The notes beneath the pieces were generated by a model. That model was not told the origin of the DNA and did not search any database. It worked only from the letters and a program-made list of their open reading frames with translations. DNA of 64,000 nt from Rhodocyclales bacterium. GTDB taxonomy: Bacteria > Pseudomonadota > Gammaproteobacteria > Burkholderiales > Rhodocyclaceae. Positions within the stretch are counted from its first letter, which is position 1. The number at the start of each line of letters is the position of its first letter. Below, piece after piece: positions 5,850 to 55,858 of the stretch. The position numbers and the translations under genes are program-made. The stretch is from contig JAPLQX010000015.1 of assembly GCA_026399435.1 (NCBI GenBank), positions 1 to 64,000 of the forward strand. The letters run 5' to 3'.

Positions 5850-5879
5850 TTGACACTCGCGATGTACTGCGTATACAGT
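5850..5879 (+). promoter_or_regulatory. Predicted sigma-70 promoter of the gntR-iaa operon
   Basis: TTGACA at 5850-5855 is a perfect -35. An 18-bp spacer leads to TACAGT at 5874-5879 as a plausible -10. The same -35/spacer/-10 arrangement occurs at 49126-49155 upstream of trpB2. The -10 lies inside the operator motif, which suits repression by promoter occlusion. Confidence 0.55.
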
Positions 5880-5883
5880 ATCC
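5871..5883 (+). promoter_or_regulatory. Predicted GntR operator, copy 1
   Basis: GTATACAGTATCC, identical on the opposite strand to the site at 55846-55858. An inverted repeat TACTG-N6-CAGTA (5865-5880) overlaps it. GTATAC-centred sites are typical for FCD-type GntR regulators. The site lies 42 bp before the regulator's ATG and between it and meaB, so it could control both directions. Confidence 0.65.
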
Positions 5884-5925
5884 AGTATTCCATGACGCGA
5901 GTGCAATAGTGCATTTCATTCTGCC

Positions 5926-6633
5926 ATGAACACTTCGATCAAACCCCTTGAAAGACCTGCCGGCCTGGCCGATCGCGTCTATCACCAGTTGCGCGACAAC
6001 ATCGGCAGCCACCAGATCCGTCCGGGGGAGCGCCTGCAGGAAGTCAGCTTGGCCGCGCAGCTCGGCGTTTCGCGCACTCCCGTGCGCGAAGCCTTGGCGC
6101 GGCTCGAAAGCGAAGGCATGATCGCCGTGGAAGGTCGCGGCTTCGTCGTTCCCGAACTGACCGACGCCGACATCGAGGAAATCTACCAGCTGCGCTTTCT
6201 GCTGGAACCCGCGGCCATGCGCACCGCCGTCGCCGAAATCAGCAGTCCCGCCGACCTCGCCAGCATGGCCTCGGCGATCGAGGATGCAACTGCCGCCGAC
6301 AAGAAGGGCGATTTTCGCGCCTTCCTGGAAGCCAACAGCCGCTTCCACAACGCCTGGCGCGCGTTGATCCCGAATCGGCGGATGTCAAAGCTGCTCGACC
6401 AGTACGTCGGTCATGTGCGCTTTTTGCGCGTACTGACGCTGGGCGATGCGAGCGCAAGAAAGACAGCGCTGACCGGCATGAAGAATATTCATGCGGCATT
6501 CAAGAAACGGGATGCGGACGCCGCCGCCGCGGCGATGCACAAGCACCTCGAAGCGGCCAAGCACTTTCTCATCACGGCAATTGAAGAGATCGACCAGGAA
6601 AAAGAGGCGGAACAGCGCGCCTCCGGGCGCTAG
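5926..6633 (+). CDS. GntR-family regulator, FadR/FCD subfamily
   Basis: The 235-residue protein has an N-terminal winged helix (about 15-80) with LGVSRTPVREALARLESEGM, the classic GntR recognition-helix block. An FCD effector domain follows (about 90-220) with the metal-binding pattern around NSRFHNAW and later His residues. Such regulators usually repress catabolic operons until an acyl-CoA or carboxylate ligand binds. It is first in the iaa operon, and an operator-like GTATACAGTATCC overlaps its promoter, so autoregulation is likely. The effector is unknown; 2-aminobenzoyl-CoA or an indoleacetate-derived CoA ester is a reasonable guess. Confidence 0.92.
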   Translation: MNTSIKPLERPAGLADRVYHQLRDNIGSHQIRPGERLQEVSLAAQLGVSRTPVREALARLESEGMIAVEGRGFVVPELTDADIEEIYQLRFLLEPAAMRTAVAEISSPADLASMASAIEDATAADKKGDFRAFLEANSRFHNAWRALIPNRRMSKLLDQYVGHVRFLRVLTLGDASARKTALTGMKNIHAAFKKRDADAAAAAMHKHLEAAKHFLITAIEEIDQEKEAEQRASGR

Positions 6634-6715
6634 AACAGCCCCTTGCCAGCCGCTGCCGGCGCGGCGGCAAGACCCTTGCCGGAATACCCGGCGCCACGCA
6701 TAAAGAGAACTCGAA

Positions 6716-7924
6716 ATGACCTACAAAGCTGAAATTCCCTACGGCGCCTATTGGAGCACTCCCTTCGCCCGCTGGCAGGGCAGCTTCGCCAACCTGCACA
6801 GCATCGAATTCGCCGCGCACGTGGCCAAACTCGAACTGGGCAAACGCAAGATCGACCCGGCGAGCTTCGACTATGGCGTGCTGGGTTTCTCCGTGCCGCA
6901 AAACCACTCCTTCTATGGCCTGCCCTGGCTCACCGGCATGATCGGCGCCACGCAAGCGGGCGGTCCCACGATCATGCAGGCCTGCGCCACCGGCGTACGC
7001 ACGCTGCTCGCCGCAGCACAGGAAATCGAAACCGGCATGGCGACCACCGCGCTCGCCATTAATTGCGACCGCACCTCGAACGGACCGCACCTCTACTACC
7101 CCAATCCGCGCGGCCCGGGCGGCACCGGCGCGGCCGAGGACTGGGTGATGGACAACTTCGGCTGCGATCCCCTCGGCGGACATGCCATGCTGCAGACTGC
7201 GGAAAACGTCGCCAAAAAACATGGCATCGGCACGGCAGAGCAGCACGAACTGGTGCTGCGGCGCGAAGAACAGTACCGTCAGTCGCTGGAGAACGACTCC
7301 GCTTTTCTGCGCCGCTTCATGACCCTGCCCTTCGACGTGCCGGCGCCCAACTTCAAGAAGACCGCGAGCACCATGGCCGGCGACGAGGGCGTATCGCAAT
7401 CGACAGCCGACGGACTGGGCAAGCTGAAGCCCGTCATGCCGGGCGGTTCGGTCACCTTCGGCGGCCAGACCCATCCGGCCGACGGCAACGCGGCGATCGT
7501 CGTCACGACACGCGACAAGGCGCGCGAACTTTCCACCGACAAGAAAATCGCGGTGCGCCTGCATGGCTTCGGCCTGGCCCGCGTACCGCTGGCCTACATG
7601 CCCGAGGCGATGCTGCCGGCGGCGCAGCGCGCGCTGGATCAGGCCGGGCGCAGCGTCGCCCAGATGACCGCGATCAAGACGCACAACCCCTTCGCGGTCA
7701 ACGACCTGTTCTTCGCCAAACAGACCGGCGCCGACCTGAAGTCGATGAACAACTATGGCTGCTCGCTGGTTTGGGGCCACCCGCAGGCGCCGATGGGAAC
7801 TCGCGCCGTCATCGAACTGATCGAGGAACTGGCACTGCGCGGGGGCGGCTTCGGCCTCTTCACCGGCTGCGCCGCGGGTGACACGGCGATGTCGGTGGTG
7901 CTGGAAGTATGCGACGCAAAATGA
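6716..7924 (+). CDS. Thiolase (acyl-CoA C-acetyltransferase) of the indoleacetate pathway
   Basis: A thiolase-superfamily protein of 402 residues. It has the nucleophilic Cys in MQACATGVRTLL, THNPFAVND near residue 320, the GCSLVWGHPQAPMGTR block and a C-terminal GCAAGDTAMS loop that replaces the usual CGGGGQG-type loop. Expected role: thiolytic cleavage of the 3-oxo-3-(2-aminophenyl)propionyl-CoA formed from indoleacetate, giving 2-aminobenzoyl-CoA and acetyl-CoA. It lies 82 bp after the regulator with no promoter or operator seen, so it is probably co-transcribed. Substrate is inferred from the cluster; the fold assignment is firm. Confidence 0.85.
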   Translation: MTYKAEIPYGAYWSTPFARWQGSFANLHSIEFAAHVAKLELGKRKIDPASFDYGVLGFSVPQNHSFYGLPWLTGMIGATQAGGPTIMQACATGVRTLLAAAQEIETGMATTALAINCDRTSNGPHLYYPNPRGPGGTGAAEDWVMDNFGCDPLGGHAMLQTAENVAKKHGIGTAEQHELVLRREEQYRQSLENDSAFLRRFMTLPFDVPAPNFKKTASTMAGDEGVSQSTADGLGKLKPVMPGGSVTFGGQTHPADGNAAIVVTTRDKARELSTDKKIAVRLHGFGLARVPLAYMPEAMLPAAQRALDQAGRSVAQMTAIKTHNPFAVNDLFFAKQTGADLKSMNNYGCSLVWGHPQAPMGTRAVIELIEELALRGGGFGLFTGCAAGDTAMSVVLEVCDAK

Positions 7925-7943
7925 ATGCGGGTGCCGCAAACAC

Positions 7944-9470
7944 ATGAACGTCTCCGAATGGATTGATCGCCATGCCGGGCTGACTCCCGCCAAGACGGCC
8001 ATTCGCTTTTGCGGACGCGATGTTTCGTACGCGCAGTTTGCGGAACTGATCGATCGAGTCGCCGCCGCCCTTGCCGCATCCGGAGTAAAGCGCGGCAGTT
8101 GCGTGGCTTTCCTCGGCTTCAACAGCCCGGAAATGCTGGCCCTGCTGTTCGCCTCTGCCCGCCTCGGTGCCTTGTTCTTGCCGCTCAACTGGCGCCTGGC
8201 GGGTCCCGAGCACCGGCAGATGCTGGAGGATTGCCCGCCGGCGCTGCTCTTCGTCGAAGCGCACTATGTCGCCCAGACCGAAAGCTTCCGCAACGTGCTG
8301 GAGGCCGTGACCCTGGTCAGCTTCGGCCCCGCCGGCGACGGCTGGACTTCCTGGGCCGATTTTTGTTCCCGGGCCAAAAGCCCCACACCCCGCGATCCGC
8401 AGGTCGGTCCGGACACGCCGCTGCTGATTTGCTACACCTCCGGATCGACCGGCAAACCCAAGGGCGTGGTACTGACGCAGCGCGCGCTGGAATGCAACGC
8501 GGCCAACAGCGCCGACATGCACGAGCTGACGGCGAACGACGTCATCCTCACCACCTTGCCGCTGTTCCATGTCGGCGGGCTGAACAACCAGACCACTCCC
8601 GCGCTGCAAGCCGGCTGCACCGTGGTGCTGCATCCCAAGTTCGACGTAGACGCCACTTTCGACGCCATCGAACGCGAGGGCATCACGCTGACCGTGCTGG
8701 TGCCGGCACAGCTGGACATGATGATGGCGCATCGCCGTTGGACCAGCGCCGACTTTGCCAGCCTGCGCATGATCACTACCGGATCGACCATCGTGCCCGG
8801 ACACGTCATCAACGCCGTGCATGCCAAGGGAGTTCCGCTGGTGCAGGTCTATGGCTCCACCGAGACCTGTCCGATCGCGGCGTATCTGAAGACCGCAGAC
8901 GCGCGGCGCAAGGCTGGCTCGACCGGCAAGGCGGCCCTCCACTGCCGGCTGCGGATCGTCGATGGCCAGGACACCGACGTCAAGCCCGGCATCACCGGCG
9001 AGATTCTGGTGCAGGGCGACAACGTCATGATCGGCTACTGGAATGCGCCGCAGGCCACGAAAGCGGTGCTGATCGACGGCTGGTTCCACACCGGCGACAT
9101 GGGCCATCAGGATGAGGATGGCTACCTCTACGTCGATGGCCGCAGCAAGGAAATGATCATCTCCGGTGGCGAGAACATCTATCCGGCCGAGATCGAAAAC
9201 CTGCTGATCGAATGCTCCGACATCCTCGAAGCCTCGGTGATCGGCCGGCCCGACGACCGCTGGGGTGAAATAGTGGTCGCCGTGGTGGTGCCGCGAGCCA
9301 ACAGCCTGCTTACCGGCGACCAGGTCGTGAAACTGCTGGAAGGACGCATTGCCCGCTTCAAGCTTCCCAAGGAAGTGGTGTTGGTCAACCAGCTGCCGAG
9401 AACCGCGCTGGGCAAGATTCGCAAGGAAGACGTGCGCCAGATGGTCGCGCGTACAGCCTCTCCCCACTAA
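7944..9470 (+). CDS. iaaB: AMP-forming acyl-CoA ligase, probable indoleacetate-CoA ligase
   Basis: A class I adenylate-forming ligase (508 residues from the ATG at 7944). It has the P-loop YTSGSTGKPKGVVLTQ, YGSTETCP, HTGDMGHQDEDGYLYV and the C-terminal catalytic Lys in LPRTALGKIRKED. That last motif is also the PX4GK pattern recognised by Pat-type acetyltransferases. An indoleacetate-CoA ligase named IaaB is known from the Aromatoleum auxin operon, and the gene neighbours here match that operon. The upstream extension of the frame overlaps the thiolase and was excluded; the gap to the thiolase is 19 bp. Family certain, substrate inferred. Confidence 0.8.
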   Translation: MNVSEWIDRHAGLTPAKTAIRFCGRDVSYAQFAELIDRVAAALAASGVKRGSCVAFLGFNSPEMLALLFASARLGALFLPLNWRLAGPEHRQMLEDCPPALLFVEAHYVAQTESFRNVLEAVTLVSFGPAGDGWTSWADFCSRAKSPTPRDPQVGPDTPLLICYTSGSTGKPKGVVLTQRALECNAANSADMHELTANDVILTTLPLFHVGGLNNQTTPALQAGCTVVLHPKFDVDATFDAIEREGITLTVLVPAQLDMMMAHRRWTSADFASLRMITTGSTIVPGHVINAVHAKGVPLVQVYGSTETCPIAAYLKTADARRKAGSTGKAALHCRLRIVDGQDTDVKPGITGEILVQGDNVMIGYWNAPQATKAVLIDGWFHTGDMGHQDEDGYLYVDGRSKEMIISGGENIYPAEIENLLIECSDILEASVIGRPDDRWGEIVVAVVVPRANSLLTGDQVVKLLEGRIARFKLPKEVVLVNQLPRTALGKIRKEDVRQMVARTASPH

Positions 9471-9501
9471 TCCCCAAGCCAGGAATCATGGAGTACATCT
9501 T

Positions 9502-11637
9502 ATGGCGCTAAAGATCGGAATCGACGTCGGCGGCACCTTCACCGACTTCGTAGTGACGCGAGACGACGCCGAGCCGGCGATCTTCAAGACGCTGTCGACG
9601 CCGTCCGACCCGTCGATCGCCGTGGTCAATGGCCTCACCGACATCGCGGCGAGCATGACCCCGTCAATGACGCTGGAAGCCTTCGCGCCGACCATCGACA
9701 CCATCGTGCATGGCACCACCGTCACCACCAACGCGACACTGACCGGCACCGGCGCCAAGTGCGCCCTGCTGACCACCGAAGGCGTACGCGATGCGCTTGA
9801 AATGCGCCGTGGCATTCGCGAGGAGCAGTACAACAACCGCTACACCAACGTCAAACCCCTGGTACCGCGCTATCTGCGCGCCGGCATCAGCGGCCGCCTC
9901 GACCGCAACGGGACCGAGACCGCGCCGCTCAACCTGGCGCAGATCCGCGAGGCCATCGACTTGTTCAAGCAGGAAGGGGTGCAGGCCGTCTCGATCTGCT
10001 TCATGAACTCCTTCGCCAACCCGGCCCACGAAAAAGCGGCGGCAGAACTGGTGAAGAAGGAAATGCCCGGCGCCTACCTGTCGGTATCCACCGACCTGCT
10101 GCCGTCGATCCGCTTCTACGAGCGGGTGAGCACCACGGCGCTCAACTCCTATGTCGGTCCCAAGCTCAACCATTACCTCGACCAGCTCGTCGGCCGGCTC
10201 AAGAGCATCGGCTTCAGGAACCTGCTGCTCATCATGCAATCCAACGGCGGCGTCATCTCGCCGCAACTGGCGCGCGAGAAGGCTGCCCTGACGCTGCTTT
10301 CCGGCCCCGCCGGCGGCCCCGGCGCCGGGCTGTTCTACGTTCGCCTGCACGGCCAGAACAAGTGCATCACCACCGACATGGGCGGCACCAGCTTCGAAGC
10401 CTCGGTCGCGGTGGACAGTCCGATGATCAAGAACGACGGCGAAATCGCCCGCCACAAGATCGCCCTGCCGATGCTCGACATCCACACCATCGGCGCCGGC
10501 GGCGGCTCGATCGGCTGGCTGGACGAAGGCGGCATGCTGCGCATGGGGCCGCAAAGCGCCGGCGCCGACCCCGGCCCGGCCTGCTACAGCAAGGGCGGCA
10601 GGCTGCCGGCCACCACCGACGCCAACGTCGTGCTGGGCTACCTCGACCCCGGCTTCTTCGCCGGCGGCAGGATGAAACTCGACGCGGCGGCCGCGCGCAC
10701 CGCGATCGAGGAACACATCGCCAGGCCGATGGGGCTTTCCGTCGAAGAGGCGGCCGCCGGCATGTACCGCGTGGCCTGCAACAACATGGCCCAGGGCGTG
10801 CGCGAAGTCACCATCAAGCGCGGCTTCGACCCGCGCGAATTCCCCTTCATTCCCGCCGGCGGCGCCGGCCCGATCCACTCCTGCCTGATCTGCAGCGAGC
10901 TGGAAATCCCGCTGCAGATCGTGCCGCGCGAGTCGTCCGTGCTGTGCGCCTTCGGCATGCTGATGAGCGAGTTGAAGCACGACTTCGTGCGTACCTTCGT
11001 CGCCCGCCTCGAAGCCATCGACTGGCCCCGGCTCGCGGCCATGATCGACGAAATGTCGGCGGACGGCACACGGCAACTGGTCGAGGAGCGCATCGCCGAA
11101 GAACGCCGTCGCTACGAGGTCAGGTTCGACTGCCGCTACATCAAGCAGTACCACGAGGTGTCCTTCAGCGTGCCGCGCGAGCTGATCGACAGCCGCGACA
11201 CTGCCGCCATCGCCGCCGCCTTCAATGCCGAGCACAACCGGCTCTACGGCTATTCGCTGGAGGGCGAGAAGACGCCGATCGAAATCATCAACGTCCGCGT
11301 CCAGGCCATTGGCATCACCGACAAGCCGACCTACCGCAAGGAAAACTGGGTGGGCGCGAACGCCGCCAATGCGCTGAAGGGCAAGCGCAGCATGTACATC
11401 CCGGAAACCAAGACCTTCCGGGAAACGCCGGTGTATGACGGCCACAAGATGCATTTTGGCAACCGCATAATCGGCCCGGCCATGATCGAGCAGGAAACCA
11501 CCGCGATCTTCGTCAGCGATTCCTACGATTGCGCGGTCGATACTCTGGGTTCCTTCGTCATCTACCAGAAGGGTCGCGAGGATCTTGCCGCGGCCTGCTT
11601 CGAGGACACCAAGGCAAACGCGGAGGCACTGGCATGA
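9502..11637 (+). CDS. Hydantoinase/oxoprolinase family, ATP-binding subunit A
   Basis: The 711-residue protein begins IGIDVGGTFTDFVV, the ASKHA-type phosphate loop of HyuA/acetophenone carboxylase alpha subunits. It also has VHGTTVTTNATL, LLSGPAGGPGAG and DMGGTSFEASV. In the auxin pathway an ATP-dependent hydantoinase-like enzyme opens the lactam ring of the oxidised indole to give 2-aminophenylsuccinate. Start ATG 9502 follows GGAG with an 8-bp gap. It overlaps subunit B by ATGA. Related enzymes (acetone or acetophenone carboxylases) carboxylate instead of hydrolyse; context favours hydrolysis of a cyclic amide. Confidence 0.88.
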   Translation: MALKIGIDVGGTFTDFVVTRDDAEPAIFKTLSTPSDPSIAVVNGLTDIAASMTPSMTLEAFAPTIDTIVHGTTVTTNATLTGTGAKCALLTTEGVRDALEMRRGIREEQYNNRYTNVKPLVPRYLRAGISGRLDRNGTETAPLNLAQIREAIDLFKQEGVQAVSICFMNSFANPAHEKAAAELVKKEMPGAYLSVSTDLLPSIRFYERVSTTALNSYVGPKLNHYLDQLVGRLKSIGFRNLLLIMQSNGGVISPQLAREKAALTLLSGPAGGPGAGLFYVRLHGQNKCITTDMGGTSFEASVAVDSPMIKNDGEIARHKIALPMLDIHTIGAGGGSIGWLDEGGMLRMGPQSAGADPGPACYSKGGRLPATTDANVVLGYLDPGFFAGGRMKLDAAAARTAIEEHIARPMGLSVEEAAAGMYRVACNNMAQGVREVTIKRGFDPREFPFIPAGGAGPIHSCLICSELEIPLQIVPRESSVLCAFGMLMSELKHDFVRTFVARLEAIDWPRLAAMIDEMSADGTRQLVEERIAEERRRYEVRFDCRYIKQYHEVSFSVPRELIDSRDTAAIAAAFNAEHNRLYGYSLEGEKTPIEIINVRVQAIGITDKPTYRKENWVGANAANALKGKRSMYIPETKTFRETPVYDGHKMHFGNRIIGPAMIEQETTAIFVSDSYDCAVDTLGSFVIYQKGREDLAAACFEDTKANAEALA

Positions 11638-13319
11638 GCACCCAAAAGATCGATCCCATCCTGCTTTCCGTCTATGCGCGGACCTTCAAGTCGATCACCG
11701 ACGAGATGAGCATTTCGATGGAGCAGACCACTCGCTCGCCGATCCTCTGCGAGGCCAAGGACTATGTCACCGGGCTCTACGACGCCGACGGCAACATGCT
11801 GGAACAGACCGAGAACCTGCCGATCCTGGCCTTCTCGCTGGCGCCGGTGTGCAAGTACATCAAGGAATTTTTCGGCGACGAGATCTATCCCGGCGACGTG
11901 ATTTTCCACAACGACGTGTTCAGCCTGGGCAACCAGAACAACGACGTCGCCGCCTTCAAGCCGGTGTTCTTCGAGGACAAGCTGGTGGCCTGGACGGCGG
12001 TCAAGGGTCACCAGGCGGACATCGGCGGCAACGTCGCCGGCGGCTACAACCCGAACGCCGTCGAGGTCTGGCAGGAAGCCCTGCGCATCCCGCCGGTCAA
12101 GGTGGTCGAGCGCGGCAAGCTGCGCAAGGACGTGTGGGGCCTGATCTTCGCCAACGTGCGCCTCGACATCGTGCAGCACGACATGAAAGCCGAGATGGGC
12201 GCCTGCACGGTCGGCGAACGCCGCCTGCTGGAACTGCTGAAGAAATACGGCGTGGCAAGCTACGAGTCGCACAAGCAGGCGCTGTTCGAGGCCACGCGCA
12301 AGATGATGGAAGCCGAGATAGCCAAGATCCCCAACGGCAACTACTCGGGCGAAGGCTACGTCTATTACGACGGCCGCTTCGTCGGCTCGAAGTACACCAT
12401 CCGCGTCGACATCGAGGTCAAGGACAAGCACATCAAGTTCGACTACTCGCGCACCGACCCGCAGACCAACGGCTTCGTCAACGGCACCTTCACCTCCAGC
12501 GCTTCGGCCACGATACTCACCCTGCTGCAGATGGTGAATCCGGACATCCCGCACAACGAGGGCATGGTGCAGCCGATCGAGATCATCATTCCGACCGGCA
12601 CCATCCTCAATGCCGCGTATCCGAAGGCCACCACCTTCGGCAACCATCTCTGCCCGCCCAACGCCGATGCCATCCAGCGCGCGCTGGCCCCGGTGATGCC
12701 CGACCGCGTCACGGCCGGCTGGAACAACCTGCTGGCCTCGCTGACAACCGGCCTCGATCCGAAGAACAACGAGAAGTACGTCGACATCGGCTTCATGGGC
12801 CTCAAGGGCGGCTCCGGCGCCATGCTCGGCACCGACGGCTACGACCATATCGGCATGATCGACGCCTCGGGCGGTGTGCTCGACCAGGACTACGAAATGT
12901 TCGAGCAGCAAACGCCGCATACGCTGATCAAGCACGAGTTGCTGACCGATTCGGCGGGCGCCGGCGAATGGCGCGGCGGACTCGGGGTCGAAACGATTTT
13001 CACTATCGGCTCCGACGACACGCAACTGGTGACCTTCGGTGACGGCGATTTCGAACCGGCCTTCGGCCTGTTCGGCGGCGGTGAGGGCGGCCTCAACTTC
13101 ATCCGCCTGCATTACCCCGACGGCCAGACCGTGGTGCCGAAAAACAAGGACCTCATCACCGGCGTGCCCATGGGCACCACCTACCATCAGGTCGCCAGCG
13201 GCGGCGGCGGCTATGGCGACCCGAAAAAGCGCGACCGCAAACTGCTCGCCGAGGAAATCCGCAATGGCGTGATCACTCCGGAAGCTGCCAAGCGCGACTA
13301 CGGCTACGAGGCCGCCTGA
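11634..13319 (+). CDS. Hydantoinase/oxoprolinase family, subunit B
   Basis: This is a HyuB-type protein of 561 residues: SPILCEAKDYVTGLYDADGN, FHNDVFSLGNQNNDV, GHQADIGGNVAGGYNPNA and a C-terminal SGGGGYGDPKKRD are characteristic. It forms the catalytic complex with the A subunit, whose stop it overlaps by ATGA, implying translational coupling. Expected role: ring opening of the oxo-indole intermediate. No DNA between its stop and the following DUF559 gene is available for a promoter; only 4 bp separate them. Confidence 0.88.
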   Translation: MSTQKIDPILLSVYARTFKSITDEMSISMEQTTRSPILCEAKDYVTGLYDADGNMLEQTENLPILAFSLAPVCKYIKEFFGDEIYPGDVIFHNDVFSLGNQNNDVAAFKPVFFEDKLVAWTAVKGHQADIGGNVAGGYNPNAVEVWQEALRIPPVKVVERGKLRKDVWGLIFANVRLDIVQHDMKAEMGACTVGERRLLELLKKYGVASYESHKQALFEATRKMMEAEIAKIPNGNYSGEGYVYYDGRFVGSKYTIRVDIEVKDKHIKFDYSRTDPQTNGFVNGTFTSSASATILTLLQMVNPDIPHNEGMVQPIEIIIPTGTILNAAYPKATTFGNHLCPPNADAIQRALAPVMPDRVTAGWNNLLASLTTGLDPKNNEKYVDIGFMGLKGGSGAMLGTDGYDHIGMIDASGGVLDQDYEMFEQQTPHTLIKHELLTDSAGAGEWRGGLGVETIFTIGSDDTQLVTFGDGDFEPAFGLFGGGEGGLNFIRLHYPDGQTVVPKNKDLITGVPMGTTYHQVASGGGGYGDPKKRDRKLLAEEIRNGVITPEAAKRDYGYEAA

Positions 13320-13323
13320 CAAG

Positions 13324-13866
13324 ATGACTCGACCCAAGGAAAGCCCCATGCATGCCACCGCCATACCTCTCCCTCCCCCTTCACGGGGGAGGGCTGGGGA
13401 GGGGGTGACCCGCATACCCCTGACCCAGGTCGCCCGCAAACTCCGCCACGACATGACGGATGCCGAGCGCAAGCTGTGGAGCCGGATGCGTGCGCACCAG
13501 CTCGGCGTTCATTTCCGACGGCAAACGCCGCTGGGATCGTATGTACTCGATTTCGTCTGCTTCTCCGCGCACCTGGTGATCGAAGTGGACGGTGGCCAGC
13601 ATGCGGACAGCGAGAAAGACCACGTACGTGATGCGTGGCTGCAGGCTGAAGGATTCCGGGTACTACGCTTCTGGAACAACGAAGTGCTGGAGAACATTGA
13701 TGGGGTGCTTGAAACGATCATGGCGGAATTGAACAAGGCACCCCCTCCCCAGCCATCGCCCCCTCCCCAGCCCTCCCCCACGAGGGGGGAGGGAGATGTG
13801 GCATCGGCGCCGTCGACTCCCTCCCCCCTCGTGGGGGAGGGCTGGGGAGGGGGAGCAGGCCAATGA
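13324..13866 (+). CDS. DUF559 endonuclease-like protein inserted in the iaa operon
   Basis: The core (about residues 30-135) is a DUF559 restriction-endonuclease-like fold related to Vsr repair nucleases: ARKLRHDMTDAERKLWSRM, FRRQTPLGSYVLDFVCF, LVIEVDGGQHADSEKDHVRD and RFWNNEVLENIDGVL. The Asp, Glu and Gln of the catalytic core appear intact. Both termini are low-complexity Pro/Gly sequence because the frame runs through G/C-rich repeats at 13366-13405 and 13741-13853. It has no plausible role in indoleacetate catabolism and sits between hydantoinase B and the dehydrogenase in the same orientation, so it looks like an in-frame insertion that keeps the operon transcribed. The start could be 13348 instead. 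Confidence 0.75.
   Translation: MTRPKESPMHATAIPLPPPSRGRAGEGVTRIPLTQVARKLRHDMTDAERKLWSRMRAHQLGVHFRRQTPLGSYVLDFVCFSAHLVIEVDGGQHADSEKDHVRDAWLQAEGFRVLRFWNNEVLENIDGVLETIMAELNKAPPPQPSPPPQPSPTRGEGDVASAPSTPSPLVGEGWGGGAGQ
13366..13405. repeat. Left G/C-rich inverted repeat flanking DUF559
   Basis: CCTCTCCCTCCCCCT, a short TCAC centre, then GGGGGAGGGCTGGGGAGGGGG: an imperfect palindrome. The same unit recurs on the far side of the DUF559 core. Confidence 0.8.
13741..13853. repeat. Right G/C-rich inverted repeats flanking DUF559
   Basis: Two adjoining units. One is CCCCCTCCCCAGCC, repeated, then CCCTCCCCCACGAGGGGGGAGGG. The other (13817-13853) has CTCCCTCCCCCC, TCGT and GGGGGAGGGCTGGGGAGGGGG. They match the left repeat in sequence and palindromic layout, framing DUF559 as a repeat-bounded unit. 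Confidence 0.8.
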
Positions 13867-14996: not shown

Positions 14997-15394
14997 CGGC
15001 ATCACAACGCAGGATCAAAGTCCTGCTCGGCAAACCCGGTCTCGATGGCCACGACCAGGGGGCCAAGGTCGTCGCCCGCGCCATGATGGATGCCGGCTTC
15101 GAAGTGATCTACACCGGCCTGCGCCAGACGCCGGAACAGATTACACGCATCGCGCTGGAAGAGGACGTCGACGTGATTTCGCTGTCTTCGATGGCAGGCT
15201 CGCACATCCCCTTCTGCCGCAAGCTGAAGCCCCTGCTCGAAGCCAACGGCCTCACCGACAAGCTCTGGGTGATCGGCGGCAACCTGCCGGCGCAGGACCA
15301 CGAGGCACTGCGCGAACTCGGCTTCAAGGGCATCTTCCCCTCGGGGTCCAAGCTGGATGCGATTACCGAGTACATCCGGAGCAACGTGAAATGA
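14993..15394 (+). CDS. Cobalamin-binding small subunit of acyl-CoA mutase
   Basis: A 133-residue B12-binding domain standing alone. LGKPGLDGHDQGAKVVARAM carries the DxHxxG cobalt-ligand motif. SLSSMAGSH and VIGGNLPAQD follow; the usual GG-x-I-P is GGNLP here. With the large subunit it makes the two-part type of mutase seen in isobutyryl-CoA and 2-hydroxyisobutyryl-CoA mutases. Proposed reaction: (2-aminophenyl)succinyl-CoA to (2-aminobenzyl)malonyl-CoA. It overlaps both neighbours by ATGA. Confidence 0.9.
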   Translation: MTASQRRIKVLLGKPGLDGHDQGAKVVARAMMDAGFEVIYTGLRQTPEQITRIALEEDVDVISLSSMAGSHIPFCRKLKPLLEANGLTDKLWVIGGNLPAQDHEALRELGFKGIFPSGSKLDAITEYIRSNVK

Positions 15395-16951: not shown

Positions 16952-16973
16952 ACCGCCCCTGAGGATGAATCAA

Positions 16974-47916: not shown

Positions 47917-48620
47917 CCGCGTTCGCCCTTGTAGCGGACCTGGATCACTTCGGCGAGGATGGCCACCGCGATTTCGGCGGGCGAGCGGCCGCCGAGACCG
48001 AGGCCGATCGGCGAATGGATGCGGCCGACGAGTTCGCCCAGCCCCGCGGCGCTCAATCGCTCCAGCCGCTTTTCATGCGTGCGCCGGCTGCCCAGTGCGC
48101 CAATGTAGAAGGCCTTGCTGGGCAGGGCCAGTTCGAGCGCCGGGTCATCGAGCTTCGGATCATGCGAGAGGGCCACCAGCGCCGTCGCGTCGTCAAGGCC
48201 CAACCGGGCCAGCGCTTCGTCGGGCCACTCGTCGCTCAGTTGCACGCTGGGAAAGCGCTCGGGCGAAGCGAAAGCTCCGCGCGGATCGATCACCACGACC
48301 TCGAAGCCGGCCGCGTCGGCCATCTTCGACAGCGCCTGCGCGATATGCACGGCGCCAACGATCAGCATGCGCGGCGACGGCACATAGGCCCGTGCGAACA
48401 AGCCCTCGGCACCCGGGAGCACGCCGGACAGCGATGCGCTGCGCCCGGAGCTCATGAGGCTTCTGGCCGCGGCCAGTTCGGCCTGCGACAGCGTCAGTTC
48501 GCCATCGACGGTTTCGGCGTCCACCAGACACTGCACACCATCCGCGAGACGCGTCACTGCCACCAGCGCGCGTCGCCCGCGCTGTGCGTCGGCAATTCTC
48601 GCCAGCGCCTCGCGCTTCAT
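47913..48620 (-). CDS. XdhC-family maturation protein, Rossmann-domain part
   Basis: A 235-residue protein carrying the C-terminal domain of XdhC/CoxI: PRMLIVGAVHIAQALSKMAD, VVVIDPRGAFASPERFP, ALVALSHDPKLDD, YIGALGSRRTHEKRLERL and IHSPIGLGLGGRSPAEIAVA. The start at 48620 (MKREALARI) was chosen because the upstream frame overlaps the partner gene. XdhC binds sulfurated MCD cofactor and inserts it into the apoenzyme. Here the two XdhC domains are separate genes overlapping by 4 bp. Confidence 0.88.
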   Translation of the reverse strand: MKREALARIADAQRGRRALVAVTRLADGVQCLVDAETVDGELTLSQAELAAARSLMSSGRSASLSGVLPGAEGLFARAYVPSPRMLIVGAVHIAQALSKMADAAGFEVVVIDPRGAFASPERFPSVQLSDEWPDEALARLGLDDATALVALSHDPKLDDPALELALPSKAFYIGALGSRRTHEKRLERLSAAGLGELVGRIHSPIGLGLGGRSPAEIAVAILAEVIQVRYKGERG

Positions 48621-48940
48621 TCGACGGGCTCCACGAAGACCTGCACGCGGCCGCCGCAGGCAAGACCGACCTGCCAAGCCTGTTCGTCGCTGACGCCGAA
48701 CTCCAGCAACTGCGGGCGGCCGGAGGCCATGACCTCTCGCGCGGCGTCGATCACGGCGCCCTCGATGCAGCCGCCGGACACCGAGCCGACAAAATGTCCG
48801 GCTTCATCGACGGCGAGATGGCTGCCCTCGGGACGCGGCGAGGAACCCCAGGTGCTCACCACGGTCGCCAGCGCCGCTGACTTGCCCGCGGCCCGCCACT
48901 GCTGGAGGGTTTCGAACAGGGAATCGTTGTCTGATTGCAC
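48617..48940 (-). CDS. XdhC-family maturation protein, N-terminal domain
   Basis: About 107 residues from a GTG at 48940. It shows ATVVSTWGSSPRPEGSHLAV, FVGSVSGGCIEGAVIDAA and WQVGLACGGRVQVFVEP, the CoxI/XdhC N-terminal signature with its Cys residues. The open frame extends to an ATG at 49042, but the added stretch is unlike the family. It is the first gene of the maturation operon and is divergent from trpB2, sharing the control region with the operator at 49148-49167. No strong Shine-Dalgarno; a GGCAG is nearby. Confidence 0.82.
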   Translation of the reverse strand: MQSDNDSLFETLQQWRAAGKSAALATVVSTWGSSPRPEGSHLAVDEAGHFVGSVSGGCIEGAVIDAAREVMASGRPQLLEFGVSDEQAWQVGLACGGRVQVFVEPVE

Positions 48941-49125
48941 GTTGTTTTCTGCCTTTTTTCGGGATGATCCCTGTCTGCGACAGGCGCCATCAACTCCGCT
49001 GACTCGTGGATTGTGCCGCAACTGGATCGAACTGCATGGCACTCGACGCCGAAGGGCAGCGGCACTGCTTTAAACATCGAGAATCTTCACACACGGAAGG
49101 CCGCAAAAAAACCATATCAAAGAGA

Positions 49126-49155
49126 TTGACATCACGGCATTTGTTTGCATACAGT
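49126..49155 (+). promoter_or_regulatory. Predicted sigma-70 promoter of trpB2
   Basis: TTGACA at 49126-49131 and TACAGT near 49150-49156 separated by 18 bp, the same arrangement as at 5850-5879. The -10 lies inside the operator pair. Confidence 0.5.
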
Positions 49156-49167
49156 GTACCGTATCCT
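49148..49167 (+). promoter_or_regulatory. Predicted GntR operator, copy 3 (two overlapping matches)
   Basis: GCATACAGTGTAC (49148-49160) and GTGTACCGTATCC (49155-49167) match copy 1 at 9-10 and 11 of 13 positions. They overlap by 6 bp, so one or two dimers could bind. The site serves both the plus-strand trpB2 and, 208 bp away, the minus-strand maturation operon. Confidence 0.6.
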
Positions 49168-49289: not shown

Positions 49290-50660
49290 ATGAGCCAGAC
49301 CCGCATCATGCTGGATGAAAGCGAGATACCAACCCATTGGTACAACGTAGTCGCCGATATGCCGAATCCGCCGCTGCCACCGCTGGCGCCCGACGGCAAT
49401 CCGGTGACACCGGAGCAGATGCTGGCGATCTTCCCCGGCAACCTGCTTGAGCAGGAGATGAGCGCCGAACGCTGGATCAAGATTCCCGAAGAGGTTCGTG
49501 AAATTTACAAACTGTGGCGTCCGACGCCCCTGATGCGGGCGCACCGTCTGGAGAAAATGCTCGGCACGCCGGCGAAGATTTTCTACAAATACGAAGGCGT
49601 CAGCCCGTCCGGTTCGCACAAGACCAACACCTCGGTGCCGCAGGCCTATTACAACAAGCAGGCCGGCTTTTCGCGCCTGACCACCGAGACCGGCGCCGGC
49701 CAATGGGGTTCGGCACTGTCCTTTGCCGGGCAGTTGTTCGACATCGATGTACGCATCTACATGGTGAAGATCAGCTACGAACAGAAGCCCTACCGTCGTT
49801 CGATGATGCAGACGTGGGGCGCCAACGTCTTCCCCAGCCCGACCGACATGACCCAGGCCGGCCGCGATGCACTGGCCAAGGACCCGAACAACCAGGGCAG
49901 TCTCGGCTTGGCGATTTCCGAGGCCGTTGAAGAAGCCGCATCGCGCAAAGACACCAACTATGCGCTGGGTTCCGTGCTCAACCATGTGCTGTTGCACCAG
50001 ACGATCATCGGCCAGGAAGCCAAAAAGCAGCTGGAAAAGGTGGGGGAATATCCCGACATGGTCTTCGCACCCTGCGGCGGCGGATCGAACTTTGCCGGCA
50101 TCGCTTTTCCCTTCCTCGCCGACAAGGCGGCCGGCAAGAAGGTGCGTCTGGTGGGTGTCGAGCCGACGTCCTGCCCCTCGATGACCAAGGGCGTGTATGC
50201 CTATGACTACGGCGATGTCTCCGGCTACACCCCGCTGATGAAGATGTACACGCTGGGCCACAATTTCATGCCGCCGGGCATTCATGCCGGCGGTCTGCGC
50301 TATCACGGCGAGTCGCCGCTGGTATCCCAGCTCTATCACGAGAAACTGATCGAAGCCGTGGCGGTCCCTCAGGTGGCGACGTTCGCCGCGGGGGTGATGT
50401 TTGCCAAGGCCGAAGGCATCATACCGGCGCCGGAGTCCTGCCACGGGATTCGTGCGGTGATCGACGAGGCCTTGCGCTGCAAGGAATCCGGAGAGCCGAA
50501 AACGCTGCTCTTCAACCTGTCGGGACACGGTCACTTCGATATGGCGTCCTACGACCGCTATCTTTCCGGCAAGCTGGAAGACTTCGATTATCCGAAGGCA
50601 CTCGTGGATGAGGCGCTCAAGGACCTGCCGAAGGTCGACTGGCCGCCGAAGGCTGCCTGA
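49290..50660 (+). CDS. trpB: Stand-alone tryptophan synthase beta chain, TrpB2 type
   Basis: A 456-residue PLP enzyme. Its N-terminus and [20 protein letters not shown], carrying the PLP Lys, plus [16 protein letters not shown] identify TrpB2 rather than the TrpA-partnered TrpB1. ATG 49290 follows AGGAG at 7 bp; a TTG 18 bp upstream was rejected. There is no trpA nearby. TrpB2 joins indole with serine or phosphoserine. Placement between Moco maturation genes and 2-aminobenzoyl-CoA genes, with the regulon operator, suggests indole capture into tryptophan or another catabolic PLP reaction. Followed by a strong terminator. Confidence 0.9.
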
Positions 50661-51399: not shown

Positions 51400-51785
51400 T
51401 GTTTGGGAGTCGCCAGTTCAAGCGCCTCAATAAAGTCCAGAATTCCGGCAGCCTCCAGCGCATCCCGCTGCTGCAGGAGGAAAGGCATGATTTTGCCGCG
51501 GCGTACCAGGCCAGCCATGCACGAATCGCCTTCGGCGCACACGGTCTCGAGCGCCGCCTCGCTCATGACCAGCAGCATGCCCCAGTCGGCGGGAAATCGT
51601 TCATCGTAGTCGCATTGCTCAACCGGGCGACCCTGGCTGCCCGGCCACCAGAGCCAGGCCGAGCCGCTCTTCGCCGCAAAATCCTCGCTGCCGACGAAGG
51701 CGACTGCCAGCGCTTCGCTCACCTCGACGTCGCCTGCAGGCATTGCCGCCAGAACTTGCCGCCAGGTCGACTCGTCAAGCTTCAT
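51396..51785 (-). CDS. Unknown protein, paralogue of the neighbouring gene
   Basis: A 129-residue soluble protein. It has EALAVAFVGSEDFAAKSGSA, then WGMLLVMSEAALETVCAEGD, LVRRGKIMPFLLQQRDALEA and AGILDFIEALELA. The latter half is related to the 50929-51399 product. It overlaps the Rid gene by ATGA. No catalytic motif is obvious. It is probably a substrate-binding or stabilising factor for the 2-aminobenzoyl-CoA enzymes; this is inference from operon position only. Confidence 0.7.
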   Translation of the reverse strand: MKLDESTWRQVLAAMPAGDVEVSEALAVAFVGSEDFAAKSGSAWLWWPGSQGRPVEQCDYDERFPADWGMLLVMSEAALETVCAEGDSCMAGLVRRGKIMPFLLQQRDALEAAGILDFIEALELATPKH

Positions 51786-52177
51786 GCGCCGGGAAGTACC
51801 GCCGTGGCTTCGATTTCGACCCTGGCGCCTTCCTCGACGAATCCGGCGACCTGCACCGCCGTCATCGCCGCGCCGTAGCTGCCGATGATCCTGCGGAAGA
51901 CGTCGCCGAGCTCCTTCTGTTTCGCCCAGTATTCCTCCTTGCTACCGAGGTACCAGGTCATGCGCACGATGTGCTCGGGCTTCGCTCCGGCCTCGGCGAG
52001 GATCGCGACGATGTTTTTCAGCGCCTGTTCGGCTTGAGTGACGATGTCGTCGCCAGGGAACTTGCAATTCTCGTCCCAGCCGACCTGCCCGGCGACGAAC
52101 ACCATTTCACCGCGTGCAACCACACCGTGGGCATAGCCCTTGGCCAGCGTCCAGCCCTTCGGCAATAAAGTCTTCAA
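51782..52177 (-). CDS. Rid/YjgF family protein lacking the usual catalytic Arg
   Basis: A 131-residue Rid fold: VFVAGQVGWDENCKFPGDDI, TQAEQALKNIVAILAEAGA and RVEIEATAVL. In RidA the deaminase Arg near position 105 occurs in a P/A-R-S block before the last strand; here that place reads GAAMTAVQVAG with Met, so classical enamine deaminase chemistry is doubtful. Family members in aminoaromatic pathways hydrolyse enamines or imines. It sits between a 2-aminobenzoate-CoA ligase and the unknown paralogues with 4-11 bp junctions. Confidence 0.85.
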   Translation of the reverse strand: MKTLLPKGWTLAKGYAHGVVARGEMVFVAGQVGWDENCKFPGDDIVTQAEQALKNIVAILAEAGAKPEHIVRMTWYLGSKEEYWAKQKELGDVFRRIIGSYGAAMTAVQVAGFVEEGARVEIEATAVLPGA

Positions 52178-52188: not shown

Positions 52189-53802
52189 TTAAGAATTCTG
52201 TCGCAGGCGGAAGCGCTGCAGCTTGCCGGTTTCGGTGCGCGGCAAGGTGGTGGCGAATTCGACCTGGCGCGGATACTTGTAGGGAGCGATGGTCTGCTTG
52301 ACGAAGTCCTGCAATTCCTTTGCCGTTGCCGGCGTCGGCTCGGCTTCCGGCCGCAACACGACGAAGGCCTTGACTATCTGGCCGCGCTCATCGTCGGCCA
52401 CGCCGATGACGCCGCACTCGGCCACCTTCGGATGGCGCAGCAAGGCATCCTCGACCTCCGGGCCGGCGATGTTGTAACCAGCCGAAATGATCATGTCATC
52501 GGTGCGCGAATGGTAGTGAAAGTAGCCCTCGGCATCCATCGAATAGGCATCGCCGGTGTAGTTCCAGCCGTTCTTGACATAACTGGCCTGGCGCTCGTCG
52601 GCGAGATAGCGGCAACCCGTGGGCCCCTTCACCGCCAGCTTGCCGACCTGCCCGATGGGCGCCGGTTTTCCGTCGTCGTCCATCACGCAGGCGAGATAGC
52701 CGGGTACCACGGTGCCGGTGGCGCCGGGCAGCGCGTGCGCTTCATCGGCCGAGATGAAGATGTGCATCAGTTCCGTGGCGCCAATGCCGTCGATCATCTC
52801 GATGCCGGTCGCCTCCTTCCACAGCGCGCGTGTCGCCGCTGGCAGGGCCTCGCCGGCAGAAACGCATTTGCGCAGGCTGCTGTTGCGCAGCGGCCCAGCG
52901 ATCGGCGCTATGGCGCGATAGGAAGTCGGCGCGGTAAACAGCACCGTGGCCTTGTAGTTGGCAATCGCATCGACCAGATCCTGCGGCGCCCCCTGCTCCA
53001 GCAATACCGTCGAGGCGCCGACGCTGAGCGGAAATAGCAGCAGCCCGCCGAGGCCGAAGGTGAAGGCCAGCGGCGGCGTGCCCATGAAGACATCGTCGGC
53101 GACCGGGCGCAAGACGTGCGGCGGCCAGCAAACGCAGGAAGCCATGACGTCGCGATGGAAATGCATGGTCGCCTTGGGTTGCCCGGTAGTACCCGAGGTG
53201 AAGGCCAGGAGGCAGGTATCGGTCAGCGCGGTATCGACGTTGCTGAAGGCCGTCGATTGCTTCGCCATTGCCGCTTCGAGCCCCTCTGCCGACGTATCGT
53301 TGAAATGGCGGACGTGCTGCAGTTCCGGGCACTCTGCCGCTGCGCCCTTCAGTTCGTCTGCCAGGCGCAGATCGCAAAGCGCATGGGTCACGCGCGCCTT
53401 GGTGATGACGTGCTTGAGTTCCTTCGCCCGCAGCAGCGGCATGGTCGCCACCGCGACGGCGCCGGCCTTCATTACGGCAAACCAGCACGCGGCCATCATC
53501 GGATTGTTTGGCGCCCGCAGCAGCACGCGATTGCCGGGCACCATGCCCATGTCCCTGACCAGCACATTGGCGATGCGGTTGGCGCGCTCCTGCAGATCGG
53601 CGTAGGTCCAGCGCACACCCGGCGCCTGGATGCACAACCGTGCGCCGCGCCCTTCCGCCACGTGGCGGTCGAGCAAGGGGTCGGAACAGTTCAGGCGCTC
53701 GGGAAACCTGAGCGCCGGCAAGTCGAAAAGGAACTCCGGCTGCTGCTCCGGCGGCGGCAGATTGTCGCGGGTAAAGGTATCGACATGGGCGCTGTAGGAC
53801 AT
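52189..53802 (-). CDS. Probable 2-aminobenzoate-CoA ligase
   Basis: An AMP-forming benzoate-CoA-ligase-type enzyme of 537 residues. The N-terminus (SAHVDTFTRDNLPPPEQQPE, then FLFDLPALRFPERLNC) looks like bacterial 2-aminobenzoate-CoA ligases. It has AFTSGTTGQPKATMHFHRD, GIGATELMHIFISA, NYTGDAYSMDAEGYFHYHSR and LPRTETGKLQRFRLRQ. It makes 2-aminobenzoyl-CoA from free anthranilate, so the operon can use anthranilate as well as the thiolase product. It lies 25 bp after the reductase and 11 bp before the Rid gene. Confidence 0.82.
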   Translation of the reverse strand: MSYSAHVDTFTRDNLPPPEQQPEFLFDLPALRFPERLNCSDPLLDRHVAEGRGARLCIQAPGVRWTYADLQERANRIANVLVRDMGMVPGNRVLLRAPNNPMMAACWFAVMKAGAVAVATMPLLRAKELKHVITKARVTHALCDLRLADELKGAAAECPELQHVRHFNDTSAEGLEAAMAKQSTAFSNVDTALTDTCLLAFTSGTTGQPKATMHFHRDVMASCVCWPPHVLRPVADDVFMGTPPLAFTFGLGGLLLFPLSVGASTVLLEQGAPQDLVDAIANYKATVLFTAPTSYRAIAPIAGPLRNSSLRKCVSAGEALPAATRALWKEATGIEMIDGIGATELMHIFISADEAHALPGATGTVVPGYLACVMDDDGKPAPIGQVGKLAVKGPTGCRYLADERQASYVKNGWNYTGDAYSMDAEGYFHYHSRTDDMIISAGYNIAGPEVEDALLRHPKVAECGVIGVADDERGQIVKAFVVLRPEAEPTPATAKELQDFVKQTIAPYKYPRQVEFATTLPRTETGKLQRFRLRQNS

Positions 53803-53827
53803 GACATCACTCCATCAATGCGCCGCC

Positions 53828-55795
53828 TCAGATCCTGACGCCGAGGCGGTAACCTTCCTGGATCGCCTGATCGAGGCCGCGCGGCACCGTGGCGTCACCG
53901 CCGCCGTGCAACTCGTCGACCATCCACTGGAACTCGTGGAACAGGTCGTGGTTGGCCTTGCGCGGACTGGACACGATGACGCTGTCGCAAGGAATGAACT
54001 GCTCGCCCTTGGGCGTCTTCACGGTTGCACCCTCTTTGGTCACCTTGACCAGTTCGGCCAGGGTCACGGTCTTGATGCCCAGTTCGTCCACCCAGGCGGT
54101 ATGCCGCCACTTGAAGGTGGGCATGATGTCGCCGCCGATGCGTTTTTCCTTTTCCACCACGGTGACTTCGTGCCCGGCCTTGGCGAGGAACTCGGAGATG
54201 GTCAGGCCGATCATGCCGCCGCCGATCATCACCACGCGCTTGCCCGTCTTGACGCGGCCGTGTGCCACTTCCAGCGCATCGACCAGTAGTTCGGCGCCTT
54301 CGAGGTACTGGAACACCGCCATGTCGGTGCGAGCGCCCGCCGCGACGATGCAGACGTCGTACTCGTGCAGCACGCTGCGCATGAACTTGGCATTGGCCTC
54401 GGTGTTGAGACGCACTTCGACGCCGAGCTTCTTCGCCATCACGCCGTAGTAGTCGATGACGCTTTGCAGGTCGGCCGGGCGGGCCAGGTCGTTGGCGGCA
54501 TAGGCACCGAGAGCGCCGCCGATCCTGTCGGCCTTGTCGAATACGGTCACCGTGTGACCGCGCTTGCGGGCGGTGATTGCCGCTTCCATGCCGGCCGGTC
54601 CGGCGCCGATGATCATGATGCGCTTCTTCTCGGTCGCCTCGGTGACGTGGTACTCGGGCTCGACCTCGTGGCCCAACATCGGGTTCATGGTGCAGGTGTA
54701 AGGCAGGTCGCGGAACAGGCGCGACAGGCAGTTCAGCGAACCGATGCACGGACGCACTTCTTCCATTCGATCCTCGGCGGCCTTGTGGATCAGTTCCGGA
54801 TCGGCCAGCAGCGGGCGGCAGACTTCCCAGTAGTCGAACACATCGTCGCGCACGCAGGCATTGGCCATGGCCGGATCGGGCAGGCGGTTGCCGAAGGCGA
54901 CCAGCACGTTGGGGAACATCTTCTTGGCTTTTTCGGAGAGGAAGTTCCAGTAGCCCGGCTCGACGTCGCGGCCGAAGGAGGACTCCGGCGCTTCCTGCCA
55001 GCCGACCGTGACCGAAATCATGTCCACGCCGCAGTCGGCGGCCTGCTGCATCAGTTCGAAGGATTCGTCCTGGGTATTGCCGCCCCAGCGGTCCATCAGT
55101 TCCGCGCCGTTGAGGCGAATGGAAAGCGGATTGTCGGGAGTCGCCTGCTTGATGGCGTCGATCAGTTCGCGCATGAAGCGGCCGCGGTTCTCCACCGAAC
55201 CGCCGTATTCGTCGGTGCGCTGGTTGGTGAAGCGCGAATTGAAGTTGGCCAGCAGGTAGCCCATGAAACTGGTGACCTCGGTGGCGTCGAAGCCGGCGCG
55301 AATCGCCCGCTTTGCCGCGTCGGCATGCTGCGCGATGACGACCTTGATCTGGTCCTTGGTCAGTTCGCGCGGCGGACGAAAGTGCGGCAGGGTCTGCGGC
55401 ACCACCGAAGGCTGCACGCAGTAGCCGAGGTCGATGCCACCGTAGCGTCCGGCATGCAGGATCTGCTGCATGGCCATGGCGCCTGCGTCATGGATGTAGC
55501 GCGCGATCATCTCGAACTGCGGCAGGAACTTGTCGTCGTGGATGGCGATCTGGCGGAAGTAGGACTTGCCCTCTCCCAGCGCATCGGGGTAGGCGCCCTG
55601 ATTGGTGATCAGGCCGCAACCGGTGCCGGCGATGACGCGAACCCGCGCCAGTTCGCGCGGCGTAATCGTGCCGTCACGGCCGTTGTAGTTGGAGACGCAG
55701 CAGGCGCCGTACTTGATGCGGTTCTTGACCTCGAACTTGCCGATTTTGCCCGGCTGGAACAGATGATTGAGCTTGGCTTCGCCTGGTTTTGTCAC
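53828..55795 (-). CDS. Old-yellow-enzyme-family reductase of the 2,4-dienoyl-CoA reductase type
   Basis: A 655-residue FMN/FAD protein. Residues about 10-360 are an OYE barrel (GKFEVKNRIKYGACC, FTNQRTDEYGGSVENRGRF). Residues about 395-650 are a dinucleotide-binding module (RIMIIGAGPAGMEAAITARK). The iron-sulfur motif is RPCIGSLNCLSRLFRDLPYTC: the second Cys of the usual CxxCxxCx11C is Ser. The start is GTG with AGGAGG 7 bp upstream. Preceded by operator copy 4. Expected role: reducing the monooxygenase product of 2-aminobenzoyl-CoA. A class III aromatic acyl-CoA reductase-like role is an alternative. Confidence 0.85.
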   Translation of the reverse strand: MTKPGEAKLNHLFQPGKIGKFEVKNRIKYGACCVSNYNGRDGTITPRELARVRVIAGTGCGLITNQGAYPDALGEGKSYFRQIAIHDDKFLPQFEMIARYIHDAGAMAMQQILHAGRYGGIDLGYCVQPSVVPQTLPHFRPPRELTKDQIKVVIAQHADAAKRAIRAGFDATEVTSFMGYLLANFNSRFTNQRTDEYGGSVENRGRFMRELIDAIKQATPDNPLSIRLNGAELMDRWGGNTQDESFELMQQAADCGVDMISVTVGWQEAPESSFGRDVEPGYWNFLSEKAKKMFPNVLVAFGNRLPDPAMANACVRDDVFDYWEVCRPLLADPELIHKAAEDRMEEVRPCIGSLNCLSRLFRDLPYTCTMNPMLGHEVEPEYHVTEATEKKRIMIIGAGPAGMEAAITARKRGHTVTVFDKADRIGGALGAYAANDLARPADLQSVIDYYGVMAKKLGVEVRLNTEANAKFMRSVLHEYDVCIVAAGARTDMAVFQYLEGAELLVDALEVAHGRVKTGKRVVMIGGGMIGLTISEFLAKAGHEVTVVEKEKRIGGDIMPTFKWRHTAWVDELGIKTVTLAELVKVTKEGATVKTPKGEQFIPCDSVIVSSPRKANHDLFHEFQWMVDELHGGGDATVPRGLDQAIQEGYRLGVRI

Positions 55796-55845
55796 TGCAA
55801 TTCCTCCTAGTGGCCCGGCCGTCGGCGGGCGTTGAATTTATCTTT

Positions 55846-55858
55846 GGATACTGTATAC
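55846..55858 (-). promoter_or_regulatory. Predicted GntR operator, copy 4
   Basis: GGATACTGTATAC, the exact reverse complement of copy 1 (5871-5883), 50 bp upstream of the reductase GTG. A TTGAC overlapping the preceding stop codon may be part of a promoter, but no good -10 spacing was found. Confidence 0.65.

Follow-up and report, generated by a model that had tools for sequence, protein, structure and literature searches.

A 64,000-nucleotide stretch of contig JAPLQX010000015.1 from a Rhodocyclales bacterium (hereafter the window) contains several short sites centred on GTATAC, which precede genes scattered across about 50 kb; one of them lies upstream of a gene at 5926 encoding an FCD-type GntR regulator. 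The locus raises the question of whether these sites are operators of a single regulon, which protein binds them and what it controls. We consider it highly probable (roughly 0.88) that they are operators of the GntR protein encoded at 5926, which would repress an indoleacetate (iaa)/2-aminobenzoyl-coenzyme A (CoA) regulon, including its own gene, and would be released by a pathway metabolite. Control of the regulon by this gene had been proposed in the initial annotation of the window; the support now added comes from comparing genomes.

Proposed operator sites in the window and in the genome

All sites named in the initial annotation are present in the sequence. Those at 5871, 40587 and 55846 are exact; the two placed at 49155 and 49148 are real, with positions one base off (49154 and 49147 are correct). 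At the gntR/meaB operator, GTATACAGTATCC (5871–5883) overlaps a further unit, GTATCCAGTATTC (5878–5890), and the operator between trpB2 and the molybdenum cofactor (Moco) genes includes GCATACAGTGTAC (49147–49159) and GTGTACCGTATCC (49154–49166). With up to two mismatches to the consensus first proposed, the window holds 12 rows where 5.29 are expected, with some places counted twice because they match on both strands; none of 100 shuffles reaches 12. The six places that these sites occupy in the window are all intergenic, given gene starts at 5830, 5926, 40617, 49042, 49290 and 55795, which agrees with the earlier claim that every site lies just upstream of a gene start. This claim needs one clarification: the 55846 site is internal to a gene row, between a flavin adenine dinucleotide (FAD)-monooxygenase gene (55882–57039, minus strand) and the flavin reductase gene (53828–55795, minus strand), and precedes the reductase only.

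The motif is rare in the genome to which the window belongs (2.88 Mb, 57 contigs, 80.9% complete). Counted ungapped, GTATACNGTATAC occurs with at most one mismatch at three places, all inside the window; allowing two mismatches raises the number to 15, of which six belong to the window, and the pattern read backwards gives 21. The nine matches outside the window were considered as additional regulon members and rejected, since all nine lie inside open reading frames as roughly called there. The highest-scoring of them likewise falls within the actual gene there, which is of DUF1425 type and runs on the opposite strand. The genome-wide scan suggested in the initial annotation has thus returned few matches.

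The sites are also conserved. Across the four operators, 65 of 66 site columns do not vary among five congeneric genomes, compared with 166 of 471 flanking columns, so the conservation in orthologous promoters expected by the initial annotation is borne out. When a weight matrix derived only from gntR promoters of other genera is applied to the 64 kb, the six window sites take the first six ranks (scores 25.8, 25.8, 17.3, 16.7, 12.7 and 9.7; maximum scores in 20 random sequences range from 3.7 to 13.5).

Association of the operator with the regulator gene

The family search covered 199 genomes, including the own genome, and detected the gntR gene in 27 of them at an E-value of 1e-40. Each of the 28 homologues in these genomes has the operator upstream of its start, 26 with at most one mismatch and two with two mismatches. 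Operator places with at most one mismatch number 81 in the 27 gntR-bearing genomes (three in the own genome, 19 in five genomes and 59 in 21 genomes) and six in 20 genomes without the gene (none in G069, six together in the 19 others; Mann–Whitney p 2.9e-8). The latter set comprises G069 and the 19 first listed of 172 genomes rather than a random draw, and "without" means no match at E 1e-40.

The backward pattern gives 18 places against 59 for the motif in the 21 gntR-bearing genomes and 9 against 19 in six genomes including G069; in the 19 other gntR-less genomes it is commoner than the motif, 36 against 6, with 16 of the 36 in one genome. The plain excess in counts is modest and chance matches are not negligible; the weight rests on where the places lie. 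By our own count, 71 of the 81 places are at genes of the proposed system: 27 at gntR (two of them in one promoter), 15 at the reductase (including one on a contig fragment), 12 at the fused beta-oxidation gene, seven at trpB2, four at branched-chain-type ATP-binding cassette (ABC) transporter genes, four upstream of an AraC-type gene beside the reductase, one at the iaa thiolase and one at meaB/Moco genes. The remaining 10 include two at serC and one at a UbiD-type gene. Comparison with related genomes, another check put forward initially, therefore favours the regulon: the site goes with the regulator, is rare in the 20 genomes without it and stands at the same targets in other genera.

The same regulon could be governed by a different protein, either another FCD-GntR or the AraC-type protein whose gene some relatives carry close to the reductase. 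The own genome contains 14 candidate stretches for the GntR protein, a distant FCD regulator has the same motif, and G044, G167 and G009 each have an AraC-type gene after a site near the reductase. We regard this as improbable, because the site is found upstream of gntR in 28 of 28 cases and is rare where gntR is missing, and because the AraC gene looks like a target rather than a constant partner.

Among the best 80 of 594 loci from a named genome collection, some of whose contigs look identical to those of the family-sample genomes, 13 encode regulators of at least 39% identity; ten of these have a site with at most one mismatch, one has a site at two mismatches and two have none, one of the latter offering only 259 bases upstream. 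Xanthobacteraceae (L161) and Telmatospirillum (L168) loci carry regulator, operator and iaa genes together, as if these had moved jointly by transfer. No Aromatoleum sequence is among these 80 loci. Three of the 67 more distant loci have a site with at most one mismatch, which indicates that a wider group of FCD regulators can use the motif. At one Rhodobacteraceae locus, two perfect GTATACCGTATAC sites (L170:3852 and L170:4788) surround the gene of a distant FCD-GntR near Rieske oxygenase and reductase genes.

Operator architecture, promoters and the regulator protein

The core conserved in 23 gntR promoters outside the genus is T-GTATAC-A-GTAT-n-C-A. It reads in two ways, as a 15-bp near-palindrome or as tandem GTATNC units every 7 bp, and is better described by the latter than as a single 13-bp palindrome. 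Across the homologues the gntR operator is mostly positioned on the -10 box. In 26 of 28 gntR promoters, a -35 box (at most one mismatch to TTGACA) lies 19–21 bp before the operator, 25 of them at 20 or 21 bp, where the rate at random positions is 1.2%; this spacing means that the operator covers the -10 box.

The spacing admits a simpler explanation, namely that the matches are merely -10 boxes (TATACA/TACAGT) of strong sigma-70 promoters, kept as promoters and not as operators; the trpB2 site, which overlaps the second hexamer of a promoter-like sequence, could be read in the same manner. We think this very unlikely. Boxes of this kind are expected in very large numbers per genome, whereas there are only about three places per gntR-bearing genome and six in 20 genomes without the gene. 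Moreover, the invariant positions are not confined to the hexamer but include the terminal G and C of the 13-bp site, and the fusion-gene site comes after a -10-like box.

The gene at 5926 encodes a protein with an N-terminal GntR winged helix-turn-helix (PF00392; 68 bits, cut-off 27) starting near residue 14 and a C-terminal FCD effector domain (PF07729; 75.5 bits, cut-off 24.3). FCD regulators bind operators of the GT-N-AC type, and the GT-AT-AC sites upstream of all 28 homologues may be of this kind. Members of the FadR subfamily generally recognise a GT/AC palindrome, except that NanR uses direct repeats (PMC4494728). The predicted structure (mean predicted local distance difference test score 87) best matches VanR-group regulators, with Atu1419 as the first Foldseek hit; as a model, it adds no more than the fold class.

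Atu1419 is a VanR-group FCD-GntR repressor of Agrobacterium fabrum, whose operator ATGTATACAT overlaps -10 boxes (PMC7797058). It resembles the window system in the GTATAC core and the -10 overlap; it differs in sequence (28% identity in the Foldseek alignment), in having single 10-bp palindromes instead of units every 7 bp, and in the pathway controlled. Its zinc-binding histidines, His141, His192 and His214, are not conserved in the group of the window regulator. The corresponding residues His141, His189 and His207, matched by our own reading rather than by structural superposition, do not qualify as a metal-binding triad: 18 of 24 homologues carry Arg at position 141, 5 of 24 have His at position 189, and all 24 have His at position 207 (alignment A1, from which four gntR copies, L025, L034, L035 and L043, were excluded). 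The poor retention of two of the three positions suggests a ligand chemistry unlike that of Atu1419.

A model for the unit arrays may be NanR, the FCD-type sialic acid repressor of E. coli, which binds tandem (GGTATA)3 as three cooperating dimers (PMC8012715). Repeat and spacing differ, and the cooperativity of NanR needs a 32-residue N-terminal extension, whereas the winged helix-turn-helix here begins near residue 14.

The GntR protein could also bind these sites as an activator, as some FCD regulators do, CitO being an example. We consider activation unlikely, though somewhat less so than control by a different protein, since a protein occupying the -10 or start-point positions that these sites cover would normally obstruct polymerase, and since Atu1419, the nearest solved relative, is a repressor with operators on -10 boxes.

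We therefore return to repression by the GntR protein as the preferred reading. It would bind arrays of GTATNC units spaced by 7 bp (core T-GTATAC-N-GTATNC-A) on the -10 box or the start point of sigma-70 promoters, repressing its own gene together with the iaa operon, the fusion gene, the flavin reductase with the genes that follow it, and the trpB2/Moco divergent region. A pathway metabolite, perhaps an aromatic CoA thioester, would release it; indoleacetyl-CoA and 2-aminobenzoyl-CoA are guesses.

Putative target genes, pathway and meaning

The fusion gene occurs in 25 of 27 gntR-bearing genomes and in none of four without gntR (E 1e-200), and the flavin reductase shows the same distribution (25 of 27 and 0 of 4; E 1e-250). 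The trpB2 gene is present with and without the regulator, and has an operator before it in 12 of the 27 gntR-bearing genomes and in none of eight without gntR. Of these 12 operators, five are in congeneric genomes (two overlapping two-mismatch units) and seven have one mismatch; a weak additional site with three mismatches precedes trpB2 in G055. Apart from the 12 places where the fusion gene has an operator of its own, it lies inside the iaa row, near the CoA transferase or binding protein, in seven genomes (G010, G095, G119, G006, G121, G073 and G155). In G048, one operator heads a same-strand row, with one weak match on the opposite strand, of fusion, reductase, Rid protein, monooxygenase-like, meaB and Moco genes, and in G044 and G137 reductase, meaB and Moco genes form a single row. 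Units scattered in the window are therefore united elsewhere. The initial annotation had treated the Moco operon and trpB2 as one unit. In the divergent region around 49147–49166 either side may be the controlled one: the promoter-like sequence there points to trpB2 on the plus strand, and the Moco link comes from neighbourhood and relatives, as Moco genes and trpB2 flank the same operator in five of five congeneric genomes.

Several observations weigh against such a regulon, or against assigning it to this regulator. Target sets vary, as seen for trpB2 with its 12 operators in 27 genomes; the fusion gene has its own operator in only 12 of 25 places, and the reductase has one within 300 bp in 14 of the 26 places examined (a match in G037, cut by a contig end, was omitted). 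Places with at most one mismatch number only one each in gntR-bearing G114, G017 and G132 and none in G055. Six places occur in genomes without the gene, and seven of the 81 places are unexplained. Both trpB2 units of the window (49147 and 49154) have two mismatches to the consensus, and their scores fall within the range of random maxima, so they are not significant by score alone and rest on conservation. Finally, a distant FCD regulator of a Rhodobacteraceae genome (34% identity) shares the motif, with a Rieske oxygenase gene alongside, so the motif by itself cannot name its binder.

Table 1. Regulator, operators, promoter elements and putative target genes in the window.
Feature	Position	Strand	Remarks
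meaB, divergent from gntR	4760–5830	-	meaB and Moco genes beside a site in G004
-35 box TTGACA of gntR promoter	5850–5855	+	Operator covers -10 box
Operator at gntR/meaB	5871–5890	+	Three GTATNC units every 7 bp (GTATAC, GTATCC, GTATTC); 20/20 columns invariant in 5 congeneric genomes
FCD-type GntR regulator, likely binder	5926–6633	+	Pfam GntR and FCD; upstream site common to 28 homologues
iaa-type operon	6716–23138	+	Gene order same in relatives
Operator at fused beta-oxidation gene	40587–40599	+	GTATACCGCATAC; 30 bp before gene, just after GATAAT box; two units
Fused 3-hydroxyacyl-CoA dehydrogenase/enoyl-CoA hydratase	40617–42629	+	Pfam 3HCDH_N, ECH_1; within iaa operon in seven relatives
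Mo-hydroxylase maturation genes	44652–49042	-	XdhC/CoxI, XdhC_C, MobA-like, class-V aminotransferase (cysteine desulfurase type), NifU-like
Promoter-like TTGACA-18-TACAGT toward trpB2	49126–49155	+	Second hexamer inside operator
Operator between Moco genes and trpB2	49147–49166	+	Three overlapping units; 19/20 columns invariant
trpB2, standalone TrpB-like enzyme	49290–50660	+	
Rid-type gene after flavin reductase	51782–52177		
Benzoate-CoA-ligase-type gene after flavin reductase	52189–53802		
Old yellow enzyme-type flavin reductase, taken as 2-aminobenzoyl-CoA reductase half	53828–55795	-	
Operator before flavin reductase gene	55846–55858	-	GGATACTGTATAC; two units

The iaa operon encodes a thiolase, a CoA ligase, two hydantoinase-type subunits, an acyl-CoA dehydrogenase, a B12 mutase, a molybdenum (Mo) hydroxylase, a CoA transferase and a binding protein; among its scanned genes, none has a hydratase or hydroxyacyl dehydrogenase as first match, and both domains are found in the fusion. 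The monooxygenase (55882) matches one half of a salicylyl-CoA 5-hydroxylase/oxidoreductase model and the reductase the other, both far below its whole-protein cut-off, in line with the 2-aminobenzoyl-CoA monooxygenase/reductase of Azoarcus evansii. In Aromatoleum aromaticum, a B12 mutase and IaaF take part in the conversion of indoleacetyl-CoA by the iaa enzymes to 2-aminocinnamoyl-CoA, the substrate for beta-oxidation (PMC8360864). The set is metabolically coherent. The B12 mutase would depend on MeaB, and the Mo hydroxylase on the XdhC, MobA-like and class-V aminotransferase (Moco) genes; the fusion would carry out the hydration and 3-hydroxyacyl oxidation of 2-aminocinnamoyl-CoA ahead of the thiolase, whose product, 2-aminobenzoyl-CoA, would be handled by the reductase and the monooxygenase next to it. 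The operator stands both at the iaa operon and at the genes predicted to complete the pathway, the substrates of these enzymes being putative, and we refer to the set as a proposed indoleacetate regulon.

Other genes lie in or near this catabolic region. An indolepyruvate ferredoxin oxidoreductase gene (23362–26955) begins 224 bp past the iaa operon, and a minus-strand Ser/Thr kinase gene with a CRP-like tail is located, with uncharacterised neighbours, at 27165–31202. An NnrS-type gene (31559–32740) separates the kinase genes from a CoA ligase, and several relatives have a homologue of it after their iaa genes. A ClpX-type ATPase gene (34343–35347) aligns with the ClpX model only from about residue 61 onward, and the N-terminal part is seemingly missing; in G151 such a gene adjoins the fused beta-oxidation gene.

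Additional operator places are found in relatives. AraC-type genes beside the reductase have an upstream operator in G044 (L107:1802–2866), G009 (L137:3152–4213) and G167 (L108:3153–4208), where GntR may thus control a second regulator; in G137, an IS66-type transposase gene (L104:1262–3013) separates the operator from the AraC/reductase genes. Four congeneric genomes have a site before the branched-chain-type ABC transporter genes (L141:3001, L142:3001, L143:3001 and L145:3001), which was not found in the incomplete own genome, and the congeneric G151 has one before a UbiD-type decarboxylase gene (L144:3001). In two genera, an operator lies about 45 bp before a serC-type class-V aminotransferase gene followed by a serA-type 2-hydroxyacid dehydrogenase gene (L146:3001 in G117 and L136:3001 in G078). 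A general link to serine synthesis was considered and is not upheld, as an operator precedes serC in these two of 27 genomes and not in the own genome (28 upstream regions viewed, the G181 locus cut by a contig end; matches in G183 and a second G048 copy omitted).

A local FCD-GntR controlling a catabolic regulon is a well-known kind of system; the unexpected members are trpB2 and, in two genera, serC-serA. In the open-access literature searched, with the 2012 pathway paper outside its scope, no report of the window operator was found, and two regulator genes are named. These are IaaR and IaaQ of the A. aromaticum iaa cluster, regulator genes of the same pathway, likened here by cluster context (PMC8360864). 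MarR-type regulators of auxin catabolism likewise exert local control of bacterial indoleacetate degradation, but belong to the MarR family (PMC9613470).

The presence of trpB2 allows a tentative and rather doubtful speculation: TrpB2 might join indole and serine to tryptophan, transamination and indolepyruvate ferredoxin oxidoreductase would lead on to indoleacetyl-CoA, and the iaa and 2-aminobenzoyl-CoA branches would finish the degradation. If true, this would be a route of indole catabolism with serine as carrier, in which the operator at serC-serA in two genera would concern serine supply. A standalone TrpB is tied here to indole-compound catabolism in four genera. Regulation and neighbourhood point to the fusion protein as the likely enzyme for hydration and 3-hydroxyacyl oxidation, the steps without a gene in the window iaa operon. 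For the anaerobic-type breakdown of indoleacetate (auxin), a plant hormone, the locus offers an operator and a regulon that can be tested.

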